Virus record (IMG/VR): IMGVR_UViG_3300000405_000072
Coordinates: 1-21,130 of that record
Direction: 5' to 3' (one strand)
Length of the DNA stretch: 21,130 nt
Source of the DNA: a virus
How positions within the stretch are numbered: position 1 is the stretch's first letter; the number at the start of each line of letters is the position of its first letter. This document shows positions 3,672-16,385 of the stretch, in pieces. The notes beneath the pieces are model-generated. The model was not told the origin of the DNA and made no database searches. It saw only the letters and a list, made by a program, of their open reading frames with translations. A program made the position numbers and the translations under genes.

Positions 3672-4470
3672 TAGCTTTATAATTTGGAGTTCTTGTATAT
3701 AAAGAAAAAGCATTATCTCTATTACCTTTTACTTCATTTAATTTCATTACAATAGATTTTTTACCTCTAGCAGGTTTAAATTTATAATCACTTAAAATAG
3801 GATTATATTTTTTAGCTACATACTTAGTATGCCATTGTACAAAAAAATCAACAGAAGGATGATAAACTAACCATTCTTCTCCTTGATAATTAGATACACT
3901 TTCTGCATCTTTTTTAAGATAAGGAGTACCACCTTTATCTAATATTCTTTTTTTATTTTTATTACTTTTACCCCAATCAGGTCTTAAATTTTTATTCTCA
4001 TTTTGTACTACACCTATTGAACCAAATAAAGGATTTATACTAAAGTAATAATTATCATATATAATTCTATCTATTACTTTACCATTAAATTTATTTATAA
4101 TCTTTTTATAAATAGTAGCTGTAATAACTTTACTTTTAATATCTTTTTCATACTTAATAGTTTTATTTAAAATAGTCGTATGTGTTAAATATTTTTCTAA
4201 ATACAATTTAATGATATCAAAATTAATTTCTTTACCATCTTTAAACCCTCTTGTAAACTTTAAATTATTTAAAACATTTGTTGATGTACTTTTTATAAGA
4301 AAATCATATTTACTATTAGAGTATCTATTAATCTCTTTTTTATAATTCTCTAATAAATTAAGGTATTGTTTTTTATATGTAAGGTTAATTCTTATAATCT
4401 CTTTATATTCTATAAGAGACACATTAAGCTTATCAATATAAAGAGCATACATTACATTAATTTCTATCAT
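3658..4470 (-). CDS. Basic crAss-like connector/tail-region protein, role unknown
   Basis: This 270-residue protein is very rich in Lys, Ile, Asn and Tyr and has a strongly basic C-terminal third. Residues 1-120 are predicted mostly helical; the second half carries the pattern WGKSNKNKKRILDKGGTPYL (about 166-185), then WLVYHPSVDFFVQWH and a basic tail (FKPARGKKSIVMKLNEVKG). I recall similar KGGTPY patterns in structural-region proteins of Bacteroidota phages, but no enzymatic motif is visible. The start overlaps the previous gene by 14 nt and its end overlaps the next by 14 nt, placing it in a tightly coupled connector-fibre set. It could be a ring, muzzle or minor tail component. An alternative start at Met7 (4452) is possible and would shorten the overlap. 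Confidence 0.65.
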   Translation of the reverse strand: MIEINVMYALYIDKLNVSLIEYKEIIRINLTYKKQYLNLLENYKKEINRYSNSKYDFLIKSTSTNVLNNLKFTRGFKDGKEINFDIIKLYLEKYLTHTTILNKTIKYEKDIKSKVITATIYKKIINKFNGKVIDRIIYDNYYFSINPLFGSIGVVQNENKNLRPDWGKSNKNKKRILDKGGTPYLKKDAESVSNYQGEEWLVYHPSVDFFVQWHTKYVAKKYNPILSDYKFKPARGKKSIVMKLNEVKGNRDNAFSLYTRTPNYKANEQI

Positions 4471-5080
4471 CTTTGTCTATGTTTATTTCTTCTCCATCTT
4501 TAGAAGGTGCTTGATACTCTCTTCTTACAATCTTTTTAATATCTGCAATCATATCAGCAGGAAGAGAAAAAGGAAGATCATCAGGTAGCACATCAGAATT
4601 ACAATCTTCTATATTTCTTGGGTCAGCAATTACTTCTTCTACTACAAGTTTACAAGGTTTTAAGTTATTAAGCAATAATATTTCATCATTTATTGCAGTA
4701 TAATAAAAGATATTTTTTTGTAAGGGTAAGTGAGCTAAATATTCAAATTCTTGTAATGTACTAAAAGTGTAAATAGTTCGTCTATCTTTACTACCTACAA
4801 AATTATAATTAATTCTACCGTTAGTAGTTTGTTTTAGGGGTCTTGCTACTTTTTGTTTACTTTTTAACATTGGCCTACCTTGATAATCTACTAACTCAAA
4901 TTCTATATTAATCTCTTGTAAATAATCAGTATAGCTTAATGCATTTCTTTGTAAATCTTGTTTAATAAGTAATGCTCTATAATCTATAATAGAGTTCTTA
5001 ATACTTTCCTTTAAAGTGCTATTAAATTGCTCCCCAATAGAGAAAGCTATATTTTCTGCAATATTATTTAAACTAGCCAT
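4457..5080 (-). CDS. Probable head-tail connector (ring-type) protein
   Basis: The protein has 207 residues. Residues 1-45 form an amphipathic helical region (IAENIAFSIGEQFNSTLKESIKNSIIDYRALLIKQDLQRNALSY) typical, from memory, of a conserved small virion protein in crAss-like phages. The middle (about 55-150) is beta-rich, and the C-terminus is acidic and charged (KDGEEINIDKDD). There are no membrane segments, signal peptide or catalytic motifs. The start codon shares one base with the preceding stop (TAATG), a strong coupling arrangement. Between the lysis-type genes and the fibre genes, it most likely belongs to the neck ring stack. Assignment to a specific ring would need structural comparison. 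Confidence 0.62.
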   Translation of the reverse strand: MASLNNIAENIAFSIGEQFNSTLKESIKNSIIDYRALLIKQDLQRNALSYTDYLQEINIEFELVDYQGRPMLKSKQKVARPLKQTTNGRINYNFVGSKDRRTIYTFSTLQEFEYLAHLPLQKNIFYYTAINDEILLLNNLKPCKLVVEEVIADPRNIEDCNSDVLPDDLPFSLPADMIADIKKIVRREYQAPSKDGEEINIDKDDRN

Positions 5081-5760
5081 TAGAAATTTTTTATAATTTT
5101 TAAAGAAATCAAGTCTTTATTAGGTATAGTATAAGTTTTAAAATTGTTTAATTGTATATTCTCTATTCGTTCTAAACTCTTTCCATATTCACCTATAAAT
5201 TGCCAATCACTTTTAGTAGTATAACTAAGTAATAAAGAAGCGTGGTTTAAATTATTATATCCTATTCCTGCACCTATTTTAACTCTCTCATTACTAAGAG
5301 TATTATTTACTGTTTTAGTTACTTTAACTGTATCTACTCTTGTAATATATTTAGGAAATAAAGGTTTATACTTAAATTGTACATCTTTTAAATCACCAGA
5401 AAAATCATTAAGTATTATAGCTTCTCCTATAAGTAATGAATCAGATAAATTTACAGTAAATTCTTTAAAATCTTTAAACGACCTAGCTCCACCATTCTTT
5501 GTACCGGGAACTTCTTTAGTTACAATTCTAGGTGTAGGATTTAATATTACACCATTAGTTTTTACATAATGATTAAAAATTGCTAATGTGTCTATTTTAC
5601 CTTTAATATATTCAGTATCTATTACTATTTCAGTTTGCTTATCTGTATAGCCTCCTAATAAAGTTATTATCTTAGTACGTAACCATTCTTTTATTAAAAA
5701 TAATAATAAAAATAGTATTACTATTATAAGTATATTTCTTATGTTTTTGGATATTAACAT
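5080..5760 (-). CDS. Membrane-anchored, outer-membrane-like protein; candidate spanin
   Basis: The protein has 226 residues. A short basic N-terminus (KNIR) precedes a clear transmembrane segment at about 8-23 (NILIIVILFLLLFLI), followed by KEWLRTK, so the bulk is probably periplasmic. Residues 40-155 have alternating Thr/Val strands (KYITRVDTVKVTKTVN). The last 70 residues look like outer-membrane beta-barrel strands (VKIGAGIGYNN, ASLLLSYTT, WQFIGEYGKS) and the chain ends in Phe (LKIIKNF), a typical C-terminal signature of outer-membrane proteins. The gene overlaps the end of the amidase gene by 7 nt. In a lysis cassette, a protein that could bridge inner and outer membrane right after the amidase suggests spanin-like function; that is inference. 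A structural or entry-related membrane protein is the main alternative. Confidence 0.55.
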   Translation of the reverse strand: MLISKNIRNILIIVILFLLLFLIKEWLRTKIITLLGGYTDKQTEIVIDTEYIKGKIDTLAIFNHYVKTNGVILNPTPRIVTKEVPGTKNGGARSFKDFKEFTVNLSDSLLIGEAIILNDFSGDLKDVQFKYKPLFPKYITRVDTVKVTKTVNNTLSNERVKIGAGIGYNNLNHASLLLSYTTKSDWQFIGEYGKSLERIENIQLNNFKTYTIPNKDLISLKIIKNF

Positions 5761-6389
5761 TTATTACTGTAGTTAAGAATTCCGGTTGAAATAGCTTCGG
5801 ACACCCTGTTTTGGAACGATTCTGAACGTAAAAGTTCAAAGTCCTCCCTATTGTCAAAGAATAAATTTTCAATCAATACGGCTGCCCCTATGGTGTGTTT
5901 GAGAACATAAAAATTAGATTCTTTATCTAAATCTCCATCTGTAGTATCTGTTCTAAATTTTATTTGAGGAAATGTAGCTTTTATTTCTTCTCCTATTGCA
6001 GTAGCTAATATATCGCTTTTAGTTTGACCTACACTAGTAAAAATTTCAAAACCTCTACCACCACCTGCATTACTATGACAGGATATAAAAAGAGTAGTAT
6101 AATTATCTTTTTGTAAATTATGTTCTATTTTTACTCTATCTACTAAAGACATATCAGTAGCATCACAAGGGTCAACTGTATATACAGTCTCTAACCCAGC
6201 TTTTATTAGTTTTTCACTAATTTTAGCACCTATTAATCTATTATACACGCCTTCATAAGCTATACTACCATCAGGAAATTTAAATTGCTTACCTCTTGTA
6301 GTATAGATACCATTATCATCTATACCTCCGTGTCCACAATCTATAATAACTATTATTTTAGGATTTACAATAAACACTTTAGAGGTCAT
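5754..6389 (-). CDS. N-acetylmuramoyl-L-alanine amidase (Amidase_3), endolysin
   Basis: This 211-residue protein is essentially one Amidase_3 catalytic domain, a zinc enzyme that cleaves the bond between MurNAc and L-Ala in peptidoglycan. The expected residues are visible: H20 in IIDCGHGG, E46 in YEGVYNRL, H105 in ISCHSNAGG (zinc ligands) and the catalytic glutamate E174 in VLIENLFFDN. There is no signal peptide, cell-wall-binding domain or membrane segment, so release to the periplasm would need a holin or another export route. It overlaps the upstream one-TM gene by 11 nt and the downstream TM/outer-membrane-like gene by 7 nt, forming a compact three-gene membrane and lysis group inside the structural region. 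Lysis is the most likely role. A virion-associated entry enzyme is possible given its position among neck genes. Confidence 0.93.
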   Translation of the reverse strand: MTSKVFIVNPKIIVIIDCGHGGIDDNGIYTTRGKQFKFPDGSIAYEGVYNRLIGAKISEKLIKAGLETVYTVDPCDATDMSLVDRVKIEHNLQKDNYTTLFISCHSNAGGGRGFEIFTSVGQTKSDILATAIGEEIKATFPQIKFRTDTTDGDLDKESNFYVLKHTIGAAVLIENLFFDNREDFELLRSESFQNRVSEAISTGILNYSNKC

Positions 6390-7173
6390 ATCTATTTGTT
6401 TTTAAACGATCAGGGGTTTCATAGATTAAACTTTTTAATCTTTCTTTAGTATTTAAAACTTTTATAAATAAATTAGAATCTAATATCCCAGGATTGGTAA
6501 CAGTAAAAGAAGCAGTTAGAAAATAAGAAGAACTTAAAGATTTAATATAAATTGTAATAAAAGATTGCATCCCAACTTCAACACAATAATCTCGTGATAA
6601 ACCTGTATAATTTTTATTTGTATATATATTAGGTATATAAGTAAAATCATTAGCAATAGTATTAGAAACTAACCAATTATTGCCAGAAGCTATAATTCTT
6701 TTTTGATAGTCCATTAAAATATCTACCCCTTCTACAGTAGAAATACTATACATTACTGTTAAATACTTAAAACTACTAGTACTAATAGGATTCCCTCCAT
6801 CATGAGCTTTAACTATAGTAATACTATGTACATTATTTAAATTTCTAGCAAGATTTTTAACTTCTTCTAAAATATATTTTTGATCTAAAAAAGCACGTTC
6901 TGTAAATTTAGTTCTTTCTACATCTACAATACTATCCATAAATTTTACTCTATGAATTTCCTCTTTATAATCATCTAGTTTACGTGCTTCCTCTGATTCA
7001 AAAACTGTAGAAGCAAAATCCCAAAATTGAGGAAGTAAAGCTACTGTAGCTATTGTTAGTATAAATTGCAAACCATAACTAAGAAATATTTTATTTTTAG
7101 GGTTGGGTTTATTTTTCTCATTTTTGGGGGAATTTGAATTCATTTCTAAAAAGTAAAAGTTTAGTGGTTTCAT
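6379..7173 (-). CDS. Single-pass membrane protein next to amidase; holin or sensor candidate
   Basis: The protein has 264 residues. A hydrophilic Asn/Lys/Pro-rich N-terminus (about 1-28) precedes one transmembrane segment (about 29-50, FLSYGLQFILTIATVALLPQF), then a charged helical stretch, probably coiled coil (58-112), and a mixed alpha/beta domain (115-240). Within it, ITIVKAHDGG (118-127) resembles the HNGG-type motif I recall in GAF-like membrane proteins of Bacteroidota phages. An alternative start is Met11 (7143). It begins 2 bp after the previous stop and overlaps the amidase gene by 11 nt. The context points to membrane timing of lysis or to a membrane-bound regulator, but it is longer than classical holins and has a large soluble domain. 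Function is unproven. Confidence 0.6.
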   Translation of the reverse strand: MKPLNFYFLEMNSNSPKNEKNKPNPKNKIFLSYGLQFILTIATVALLPQFWDFASTVFESEEARKLDDYKEEIHRVKFMDSIVDVERTKFTERAFLDQKYILEEVKNLARNLNNVHSITIVKAHDGGNPISTSSFKYLTVMYSISTVEGVDILMDYQKRIIASGNNWLVSNTIANDFTYIPNIYTNKNYTGLSRDYCVEVGMQSFITIYIKSLSSSYFLTASFTVTNPGILDSNLFIKVLNTKERLKSLIYETPDRLKTNRYDL

Positions 7174-12680: not shown

Positions 12681-14021
12681 TTAATCTAACATTGAATTGA
12701 TGCTAATGTCTTGAGTATTCCTAGATGTTATGCCGTTGGCGTCATTTGCAGGAGTAGGCTTCATTTTAGCACTTCTTTTTAATCTATCCATTAGACTATG
12801 TACATTTTTAGTCTTGGATTTTGCATCTATTATATCGTCTAATTTATAACCTTTAAAACGAATATAAGCAAATGCTAATTTTTGTTCCATACTCTCCTTA
12901 GAAGAGTCTTGCATTTCTTTACTATTTCCTTTATCATCTATAGGACTAGAAATATAATCAAAGAAACCTTCTTTATCTTTTTCAGGTACATTAACATTGT
13001 TTAATTCCCCTTTATTGATAGTTTGTTGAACGTCATCCCAATACTTAGCTGTCTCCGTATTTCTATCGTCAACACTTTGTTTATAAGTAGCATCTCTTAC
13101 TTTTTTAGATTCTTTATCTCTAAAAGTAAGATCAGCTAAAGCTTCCTCTGCTTCTGCATCTACATCATTACTATCTTCAATTCTTTTTATCATAGCGGTA
13201 ATACGAGTATCAGTCATACCACCTGCTTTTAAAGAATCTTTTATATAGTTTAATTTTTGAGACTTCTCTAAATCTTTAACAGAAACTTTAGAGTAATCTA
13301 TTGGGTCTTTAAAAGTATCTAAAGAACCTCCAGATAGTATATGTTTAGATATCTCAGCTAATTCAGGATTTTGATTAAAGAAGCTAGATTTAAATTGTTC
13401 TAGTTTATAATTAGCCATATCATCAGATAGACTTTTCATCCCTTCATTATCATCAGTATATATCTTAACTTCTCCTTTATCATCTAAAAACTCATAATCA
13501 AGTTCAGAATGTAACTTATTAACTACAGAATTTTCAGCAGCTAATTCAGTTTTAGTTTTAACTACATTACCCTCTGCATCTACTAAATCTCCTTTATCAT
13601 TAGTAGTATTACCTTCATCTAAGGATTTAAGTACATCTTCAACAGAAGTAGTAATATTATCATTTTCATCAATAATATCTCCATTTTCGTTAAAAGCTGT
13701 TCCTTTATATTTTTCAAGAAGTTCTGATTTAAGTACTTTTGTATCTTCATCTAAATCTTCATCATTAAAAGAAGTTAAAAGAGTCTTCAATTCAGCAGAA
13801 TCTCCTTTACCCTTATCATCATCCGTATCTGTAGAGGAATCTATATCTTTAGCGGAATCTATAGAAGGGTCAGTTGACTCTTTGTTCCCTGTATCTACAG
13901 GTGTTGGAGGTGTGTTAAACTGATCTCTATCTGTATCACTACCACTATTGGTAATTTGATTAATATCTATACTACCTTCCTCAGAAGGATTAGATTGGAT
14001 AGTGCTTAAATCTTTTGCCAT
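12681..14021 (-). CDS. Acidic scaffold-like capsid assembly protein
   Basis: The protein has 446 residues. The first 80 are low-complexity, rich in Asp, Ser, Thr and Gly. Three related beta-turn units follow: FNENGDIIDENDNIT (110-124), NDKGDLVDAEGNVV (141-154) and DDKGEVKIYTDDNEG (about 181-194), each predicted as a short hairpin. From about 195 to the end it is charged and helical (DMANYKLEQFKSSFF, KSKTKNVHSLMDRLKRSAKM), with a more basic C-terminal region. Acidic, helical, low-complexity proteins between portal and MCP are typical scaffolds, whose C-terminal basic helix binds the capsid protein. No protease motif is visible. It starts 27 bp after the portal stop and ends 29 bp before the MCP start. 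A cargo or inner-core protein is the main alternative. Confidence 0.68.
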   Translation of the reverse strand: MAKDLSTIQSNPSEEGSIDINQITNSGSDTDRDQFNTPPTPVDTGNKESTDPSIDSAKDIDSSTDTDDDKGKGDSAELKTLLTSFNDEDLDEDTKVLKSELLEKYKGTAFNENGDIIDENDNITTSVEDVLKSLDEGNTTNDKGDLVDAEGNVVKTKTELAAENSVVNKLHSELDYEFLDDKGEVKIYTDDNEGMKSLSDDMANYKLEQFKSSFFNQNPELAEISKHILSGGSLDTFKDPIDYSKVSVKDLEKSQKLNYIKDSLKAGGMTDTRITAMIKRIEDSNDVDAEAEEALADLTFRDKESKKVRDATYKQSVDDRNTETAKYWDDVQQTINKGELNNVNVPEKDKEGFFDYISSPIDDKGNSKEMQDSSKESMEQKLAFAYIRFKGYKLDDIIDAKSKTKNVHSLMDRLKRSAKMKPTPANDANGITSRNTQDISINSMLD

Positions 14022-14048
14022 AATATTTTTAGTTATTATCTATTATTA

Positions 14049-16385
14049 TTATTTAGTTGTAGTTTTTTGTTTTGCTGCTTGTATTCTAGCAGTAGCTTCT
14101 TTTGCTTTAATTGCTATATTTTTTTTATCTAATTTTAAACCTTCTTTATCCATATTTATTTTATGGTTATTCATTTTATGATCTTCATTGTCAACTTCAA
14201 GTCTATCATCCATTCCTTCTATATCATCTGTCTCTCCTAGATCAAGTAACTTAGCATCTATTACTTTATCATAATCTTTATCAGCTTTATAGACTTCAAT
14301 ATCTCTAGTAGCTTGCTCACTTTCTCTTTTAGCAGCTTCTATAGCTTCGTTAGATTTAGTTATAGATTCTTGATTAGCTTGTTCTCTTTTCTTATTGTTT
14401 TCATCTATCTCCCCTATAAGTTTTTTAGTTTTAGCAAAGTTAGTAGCATCAATAAGTTCTAACATTTCAGGAGTACTTCCATTTTGTGCTAGGCTAAATC
14501 CATATTCTTTCGCTATCTGTATATTCTCACTTTCTTTTCTACTGTTCTTAACAAAGATATTCGTATCAGTACCAAGTCTATGAATAGCATCATCAGGGTT
14601 TAAATTAAGATAAGATTCTCTACCATCAGAATTAACATACTTACCTTTTTTACCATTTATATAAGCTAATTTAGATAAATCTAATAACCCTGCATAATCT
14701 TTCTCCATAAACTTCTCAAACTTCCTATTTAATTCATCGCTTATTATAGCACTTCTGAATATAGCTTGCTCACTTACAGCTTTTCCGTCACTAGCTTTAC
14801 TATCTCCGTATCTCTGTCTATTCATACCAATAGCTTCCCACCATTCATTCTTAATAGATTGCATTAAGTCGATACTTTCTTTAGCATATTGAGCTAAACC
14901 CATATCTAAAACTTTAATACCTTGCATAGCTAAACTTGCAGTAGGTCTAGTTTCATCTACAACCATCATACTATTAGCGTGAGCGTAGTACATAAATTTT
15001 TCTTCATTCCAACCTCCTTTACCTTTTGGTATGATACCTTGAGGGATTACAACAATTTTATCTTTATTTTTATTTATAGTTTTTTCAAATTGATAATGAA
15101 GTATATTATATATAACCTGATAAGGTCTACCTGATTTTACAATACTTCTAACGTCTCCTGTAGATGATGTATTAAACCTACCGTTATAGCTTAATTTCTG
15201 AGCAGAACTATTATTTAATTCCATTCTATTGTATTCTAAGGGGCCAGCATCTATATAGATATCATGTACAATATCTCCTATTCTCCATAACTCGTTTACT
15301 TCACTTTCCCACTCCCATTTAATACTTATATCTCCACCTTCTTTATTAAGTTTATAAGTATCATCAACTTCCATTGTTTCTACTTGTCCTTGTAAAGTAT
15401 CATAAGTAAGAAGTCCTACTTTTCTCCAACCTCTCCATTGAGTATGAAATACTTCAATACCATTTGTTTCATCTAAAATAGAGAACTTACCGTAATCCTC
15501 CTCATTTGATATATACTGGGTCGGGAGTCTTACATAACCTGTACTAATATTACTTGCATCACTACCTAATTCATTTAAAGTATCTTCTTGAGCTGAAGTA
15601 AATTTACCATGAAATCTATCTAATAATTGATTAGCAGTCATTACCTGCCTTCTTACAATCCAATCCCTATCTTCAATAAAATTACTTTTAGCGTTATTAG
15701 GAGAAGTAATTTCCCATGGGGGCACAACTTCATAATCAATATCATCGTGAAAAATACCCTTATAAGTAACAACTCTACCACAAGTTAACCAGTCAGTATA
15801 AGCATCTTGTTGCTTATCATCCATATCTTGATCAAAAGTAATATAGTCTAATATCTCTTGACCTGTAATGGCTTTATTAGAATCAAAGTCATCATTGAAT
15901 TTAGCAACTTCTTCTTGTAGTGTACCTTGTGCTTCTTTATCTTTACCTAAATCAATACCCATACCCTGTAACTCATTAATAAGTTTTTGGGCATAGTAGT
16001 TTTTAATAGTTCTTTGTAAACCTTCTTTATATTTATTCTCGTCTCCTGGATTAGCATCTAATACATTTACTGTTTTAAATCTTTGTCCGAATTCCCCTGT
16101 ATAAAGATCGAGGACAGGAGTTATAATATTATAATTTCTAAGTTTAGCTCCAAATCTTTTATAGTTATCAATACTAGTATTAAAAGGATTTAGTACATAT
16201 TCATAATCTTTATCATCTAACTTATTCTCTACTAACCTATAAAGAGATAGTATTTCATCTTTATCATCATTATTAACGCTTTGATCTATATAGTAGTTAC
16301 CAGCTTGTTTATAATAATTAAGACCGTTATCATCAGTCTTTTCTTTTTCTGCTGTACTAATCTTATGTTTAGGAAGTATTGCCAT
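14049..16385 (-). CDS. Portal protein
   Basis: This 778-residue protein begins 1 bp after the terminase stop, the usual TerL-portal order. The N-terminal portion has YEYVLNPFNT (61-70) and FGAKLRNYNIITPVLDLYTGEFGQRF (78-103), a pattern I associate with crAss-like portals. The wing and stem regions follow, including WLTCGRVVTYKGIFHDDIDYEVVPPWEI and SIKNEWWEAIGMNRQRYGD. The last about 130 residues are highly charged and helical (NNKKREQANQESITKSNEAI, then KMNNHKINMDKEGLKLDKKN), likely the coiled barrel pointing into the head. Length is in the large-portal range. It forms the dodecameric vertex through which the terminase pumps DNA and to which the neck rings attach. Position between terminase and scaffold-like gene supports the call. 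Confidence 0.86.
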   Translation of the reverse strand: MAILPKHKISTAEKEKTDDNGLNYYKQAGNYYIDQSVNNDDKDEILSLYRLVENKLDDKDYEYVLNPFNTSIDNYKRFGAKLRNYNIITPVLDLYTGEFGQRFKTVNVLDANPGDENKYKEGLQRTIKNYYAQKLINELQGMGIDLGKDKEAQGTLQEEVAKFNDDFDSNKAITGQEILDYITFDQDMDDKQQDAYTDWLTCGRVVTYKGIFHDDIDYEVVPPWEITSPNNAKSNFIEDRDWIVRRQVMTANQLLDRFHGKFTSAQEDTLNELGSDASNISTGYVRLPTQYISNEEDYGKFSILDETNGIEVFHTQWRGWRKVGLLTYDTLQGQVETMEVDDTYKLNKEGGDISIKWEWESEVNELWRIGDIVHDIYIDAGPLEYNRMELNNSSAQKLSYNGRFNTSSTGDVRSIVKSGRPYQVIYNILHYQFEKTINKNKDKIVVIPQGIIPKGKGGWNEEKFMYYAHANSMMVVDETRPTASLAMQGIKVLDMGLAQYAKESIDLMQSIKNEWWEAIGMNRQRYGDSKASDGKAVSEQAIFRSAIISDELNRKFEKFMEKDYAGLLDLSKLAYINGKKGKYVNSDGRESYLNLNPDDAIHRLGTDTNIFVKNSRKESENIQIAKEYGFSLAQNGSTPEMLELIDATNFAKTKKLIGEIDENNKKREQANQESITKSNEAIEAAKRESEQATRDIEVYKADKDYDKVIDAKLLDLGETDDIEGMDDRLEVDNEDHKMNNHKINMDKEGLKLDKKNIAIKAKEATARIQAAKQKTTTK

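Follow-up and report, generated by a model that had tools for sequence, protein, structure and literature searches.

A survey of spanins published in 2018 reported no spanin in about 13% of the examined phage genomes, Bacteroides phage B124-14 among them, and noted that an outer-membrane protein (OMP) might serve as an o-spanin, a type of protein to which the criteria of the survey were blind (PMC6139136). In the same work, the periplasmic part of the known u-spanins (n = 58) was described as beta-rich and free of Cys, and a separated two-component spanin pair was reported for Bacteroides phage B40-8 (PMC6139136).

The gene family examined here fits the gap left by that survey. It is represented by gene X of the window, the whole analysed stretch of 21,130 nucleotides (positions 1 to 21,130 of IMG/VR record IMGVR_UViG_3300000405_000072), which covers part of the genome of a crAss-like phage of Bacteroidota bacteria. 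Gene X had been proposed to encode a single-protein spanin with an inner-membrane anchor and an outer-membrane-like C-terminus. Based on its homologues, predicted structure and genomic position, X is rather likely to serve as the spanin of the lysis cassette, disrupting the outer membrane as one chain.

Gene X, its neighbourhood and its homologues

Gene X occupies positions 5080..5760 on the minus strand, exactly the open reading frame of the original prediction, starts with ATG and encodes 226 amino acids. It is part of a minus-strand late operon and overlaps by 7 nt the gene of an N-acetylmuramoyl-L-alanine amidase (5754..6389, minus strand; PHROG_435 endolysin, E 5.8e-33), a true Amidase_3 enzyme (PF01520, E 7.4e-27) that confirms the predicted amidase neighbour. 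On its other side, X overlaps by 1 nt the gene of crAss tail ring protein 2 (CrAss_Ring_2, 4457..5080, minus strand; PF25702, E 1.4e-14), which lies just downstream together with CrAss_Ring_1 and is a virion gene outside the lysis module. Upstream of the amidase, a one-helix membrane protein of unassigned fold is encoded (6379..7173, minus strand); it has no Pfam or PHROG match, and its position and a 46% identical homologue in locus L066 make it a possible holin or lysis regulator. One-helix membrane proteins with sensor-like domains recur beside endolysins of Bacteroidota phages, including this product, the PAS-fold protein g078 upstream of the endolysin in phage phi14:2 (L145:5795-6424) and a protein after the endolysin in pT24 that is GAF-like by eye (L121:3167-3748); such proteins could be lysis regulators or holins. 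Homology between the window protein and g078 was considered and received no support from hhalign.

X belongs to no Pfam, PHROGs or NCBIfam family and has no PDB match by sequence search. As sole query in direct sequence searches, it retrieved no match from viral contigs and none from annotated phages, and its homologues were first reached via neighbouring genes and later via alignments. L066 was reached through a 67% identical ring protein 2 and L069 through the capsid protein; both carry an X homologue at 42-47% identity. Alignment searches added L079, L081 and L085, the remote members L086-L089, the prophage-like Flavicella locus L095, L096, and five copies in Polaribacter, and a genome survey contributed the remote homologues L105-L108, L135 and L138, which are in flavobacteria (hhalign E 5e-9 for L105). 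By sequence, the homologues fall into tiers of 40-50% identity, 20-30% identity and profile-level similarity, with an N-terminal helix in all of them. The family is marked by the signature DSL..G...N..G.L....F.YKPLFPK.. (residues 98-141; 5338..5469, minus strand), identified from the alignments; among the 12 full-length core members, the C-terminal residue is Phe in 11 and Trp in the remaining one. The motif and the terminal Phe are common to full-length homologues at 40-48% identity, and X is therefore, on sequence grounds, a real and conserved protein and not a chance ORF. No X was found in the whole record of L074, a 49-kb contig that is possibly a fragment, and therefore not every close relative by major capsid protein (MCP) shows the gene.

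Two remote relatives come from cultured Cellulophaga phages. The hypothetical protein gp084 of phi38:1 is a remote X homologue (hhalign E 7e-7; HMM score 25.6 bits versus 10.9 for the best shuffle), and g076 of phi14:2, a cultured member of the Crassvirales, is linked to gp084 by tblastn (8e-14) and scores 16.6 bits versus 5.4 for the best shuffle. Both are annotated as hypothetical proteins and, like X, directly follow the endolysin; they are shorter than X, and the LGGY segment that comes after its helix is missing from them.

Membrane helix, predicted strands and the partner scan

The proposed topology, comprising an N-terminal transmembrane helix, a long presumed periplasmic part and an OMP-like end, holds up and is strengthened. 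Hydropathy analysis revealed a single strong segment (KD 2.48, window from residue 9) and no second segment above 1.3, with the most hydrophobic window at residues 9-27, and AlphaFold2 likewise predicted a helix at residues 5-34 (5659..5748, minus strand). The charge balance flanking this helix, which would provide a positive-inside signal, is ambiguous; the remainder of the chain is presumed to face the periplasm. The AlphaFold2 model was built on a 17-sequence alignment (pLDDT 73, pTM 0.32) and places a beta-rich body at residues 40-156, followed by four strands at 161-169, 173-181, 186-195 and 217-224, ahead of the last residue, Phe226. A model of the remote member L086 shows the same plan, with the helix and the C-terminal strands predicted best (pLDDT 57, pTM 0.26).

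The predicted C-terminal meander (residues 161-226; 5083..5280, minus strand) is amphipathic. Hydrophobic residues alternate with polar residues or Gly in the four strands more regularly than in shuffled sequences (p = 0.0013), and the alternation is weaker in the other strands (p = 0.064). Together with the terminal aromatic residue, these are features of outer-membrane barrels. The terminal Phe of the original prediction is confirmed, and its beta strands are seen in the models. Using VIA-align, the meander could be aligned with the final strands of the EspP, OmpK35 and OmpF barrels, as far as the C-terminus of each (Z 4-5), although these middling Z values are mixed with matches to unrelated sheets, making the barrel resemblance a hint and not proof. 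With four predicted C-terminal strands, one chain of X falls short of a closed barrel, which takes at least eight; since the four strands cannot close a barrel alone, outer-membrane insertion would need an oligomer. Such insertion is plausible, and a soluble periplasmic sheet is possible as well, given the low overall confidence of the models and the modest Z of the barrel matches.

A Foldseek search of the X model against the PDB returned no match below E 0.001. Among viral proteins, the best named match was the DUF6808 protein A0A8S5PJU3 (E 2.9e-6, probability 1.00), with a TM-score of 0.33-0.37 obtained from a low-confidence X model. DUF6808 (PF20647) is a function-unassigned family of Bacteroidota phages, and the DUF6808-like protein of L126 follows an amidase, as X does. 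However, the DUF6808 HMM had no match in the window at E<=10, and hhalign did not support homology between X and the L126 protein.

To find a lipoprotein partner, all reading frames near X in phage loci were scanned for lipoboxes. No lipoprotein ORF (o-spanin) was found near X apart from two opposite-strand matches, one in the window (14002-14181, 59 aa) and one in L108 (81 aa), and X is therefore without a visible o-spanin. True u-spanins next to amidases were recovered as positive controls in L028, L035 and L040. This result bears on the reading of X as an i-spanin-like half that sits in the inner membrane and binds a host OMP or a distant phage lipoprotein through its periplasmic beta domain. 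A single N-terminal helix is i-spanin topology, the X model is of low confidence with modest barrel matches, and phage B40-8, for which the separated pair was reported, encodes a protein with an N-terminal helix immediately behind its peptidase. On the other hand, the scanned loci hold no lipoprotein ORF near X, the terminal Phe is conserved, the strands are amphipathic, and the models contain no long coiled coil, all of which make an i-spanin half unlikely. The B40-8 protein (L127:15801-16406) has a counterpart in B124-14 (L128:6765-7370); both are rich in Asp and Ser/Thr, and the preceding peptidase is M15-like by eye. By hhalign, X and the B40-8 protein have no sequence homology.

Position behind endolysins and exceptions to it

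In the core phage and prophage set (the window, L066, L069, L079, L081, L085, L095 and L096), X lies directly 3' of an endolysin gene in 8/8 cases, counting L095, where a DUF5675 protein (L095:4539-4955; PF18925, E 5.8e-26) takes that position, with a holin-like gene on its other side. The enzymes themselves are exchanged: the gene ahead of X encodes an Amidase_3 enzyme in the window, L066, L089 and L096, in L069 a PHROG_894 endolysin (E 1.4e-14), in L079 Peptidase_M23 (E 2.2e-9), in L081 a PHROG_465 endolysin (E 1.3e-29), in L085 a CHAP enzyme (E 1.1e-8) and in L088, which has a remote homologue, Peptidase_M15_3 (E 1e-12); the X relative g076 of phi14:2 is preceded by the GH19 endolysin g077. 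Since some of the M15-like enzymes are possibly related to one another, the count is given as at least five unrelated enzyme types. The expectation that X always follows an amidase did not hold, and a tie to the amidase as such was dropped: the constant neighbour is an endolysin of whatever class. In the flavobacterial loci L105, L106, L107 and L138, the gene order is CHAP/TIGR02594 enzyme, Phage_holin_4_1-type holin (PF05105, E 2.8e-11 in L105) and X, and in L086 and L087 a small multi-helix protein is located between endolysin and X. All loci except L066, L069 and those of the Cellulophaga phages were reached via similarity to X and not via position, so the endolysin neighbourhood constitutes independent evidence for a lysis role; the detailed position survey excluded L134, L136 and L137.

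Two further observations concern the same slot. The DUF5675 protein of L095 occupies the exact place of an endolysin, which suggests that DUF5675 may be a wall hydrolase. Moreover, classical u-spanins of about 140 aa, with an N-terminal FSC lipobox and a C-terminal membrane helix, occur right after an Amidase_3 gene related to that of the window in L028, L031, L034, L035, L037, L039, L040 and L042; in the window, X fills this slot.

A role in the virion or tail, with X beside endolysins by chance, would fit the place of X in the late operon, between amidase and ring protein 2, and gains weight from a look-alike. In phi4:1 and phi17:2, gp057 (L144:3614-4330) and its copy gp059 (L120:3114-3830) follow the endolysin and have the place and architecture of X: a hydrophobic segment at the N-terminus, then a charged, helix-like middle part, then beta-like strands at the C-terminus, with Phe as the last residue. 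Of the two, gp057 was detected in virions by MS/MS, and Foldseek paired gp059 with the L086 model. Since virion preparations can be contaminated by membrane proteins, the detection of gp057 is a reason for caution and not a refutation. Furthermore, gp057 has no sequence similarity to X, and hhalign found no homology between X and gp059. The closer relative g076 of phi14:2 carries no MS/MS annotation, nor does the endolysin g077, while virion MS/MS underlies the annotation of at least seven neighbours (g071, g072, g074, g080, g081, g083 and g085), and gp084 of phi38:1 bears no structural mark. Virion detection, named with the original prediction as evidence against it, has thus been made in part, for the look-alike although not for the closer relative. 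A virion role is also at odds with a membrane helix at the N-terminus and with the occurrence of X behind exchanged endolysins in varied phage and prophage contexts, and it is improbable.

It is quite improbable, too, that X is another inner-membrane element of the lysis cassette, such as an endolysin regulator, a wall-binding factor or an antiholin: its single helix and adjacent endolysin would suit these roles, but a large conserved beta body and an OMP-like end would be unneeded for them, and a regulator dedicated to one enzyme would not be expected beside unrelated endolysins.

Some homologues occur elsewhere. Those not behind an endolysin comprise the remote members L108 and L135 and five copies in one Polaribacter genome (L090:609-1271, L091:605-1267, L092:648-1310, L093:4941-5603 and L094:4941-5603). 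All five are intact and under purifying selection (dN/dS 0.08-0.19) and adjoin repeats; in L093 and L094 they lie downstream of an HU-related gene, and the surrounding sequence available for the five contains no endolysin beside them. The proposed part of X in lysis is strengthened by its position behind unrelated endolysins and in holin-endolysin-X cassettes, with these copies as exceptions; homologues away from lysis genes, which the original prediction had listed as counter-evidence, are thus found in part. That X acts on the envelope otherwise, for example by blocking superinfection at the outer membrane, and is hence retained in some bacterial genomes is very improbable, for although the stand-alone Polaribacter copies are under purifying selection, the core phage copies are all in late lysis loci and no early or lysogenic expression setting was seen.

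Candidate spanin function and comparison with known systems

Overall, there is strong circumstantial support for X as a one-protein spanin. The original prediction is partly supported, in its topology and its link to lysis, while outer-membrane engagement, oligomerisation and lysis activity are inferred. In the proposed mechanism, X would be made late, its N-terminal helix would hold it in the inner membrane, and the remainder would lie in the periplasm. There, the beta-rich body would cross the cell wall and the last ~65 residues, with their four amphipathic strands and C-terminal Phe, would contact the outer membrane, probably in oligomeric form. Intact peptidoglycan would cage X until the neighbouring endolysin cuts the wall, upon which X molecules could gather and pull or fuse both membranes. 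More tentatively, X may represent a third kind of spanin, in which a single chain combines an N-terminal helix in the inner membrane with C-terminal strands that are assembled by BAM and close an oligomeric outer-membrane barrel.

If true, this third kind would be widespread in Bacteroidota phages and would explain their often spanin-less look. A spanin function would also give a name to a gene that crAss-like and other Bacteroidota phages carry next to their endolysins, as well as a test for it: the relatives in phi14:2 and phi38:1, which are cultured phages of Cellulophaga baltica, make the idea directly testable.

Among known systems, Rz of the Rz/Rz1 pair resembles X in its N-terminal helix, in the location of its gene beside the endolysin and, if X is oriented as presumed, in its inner-membrane anchor and periplasmic body. 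The two differ in that the body of Rz is a coiled coil whereas that of X is predicted to be beta-rich, and in that an Rz1-like lipoprotein gene was not found nested in or adjacent to X. With respect to the C-terminal strands, a parallel exists in trimeric autotransporters of the YadA type, in which each chain contributes four C-terminal strands, as predicted for X, and the barrel is closed only as an oligomer. Autotransporters differ from X in that their signal peptide is cleaved off and they lack an anchor in the inner membrane, and no homology is claimed.

The u-spanins, of which T1 gp11 is the type, share several features with X: a single protein, a place in the lysis cassette behind the endolysin and a beta-rich periplasmic part free of Cys, as in the core X family. 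X itself has no Cys at all and hence no lipobox, in line with the lipobox scan of the window, which marked nothing in X, and it has no C-terminal transmembrane helix; it is thus not a u-spanin by definition, and hhalign found no sequence homology to the lipobox-type u-spanin of L028 (probability 0.1%). In u-spanins, the lipobox at the N-terminus sits in the outer membrane and the membrane helix is at the C-terminus (PMC6139136). If the model of X is right, X would likewise be tied to both membranes, by an N-terminal inner-membrane helix and OMP-like C-terminal strands. X would probably act in the manner of a u-spanin with its topology reversed, a design not described before.
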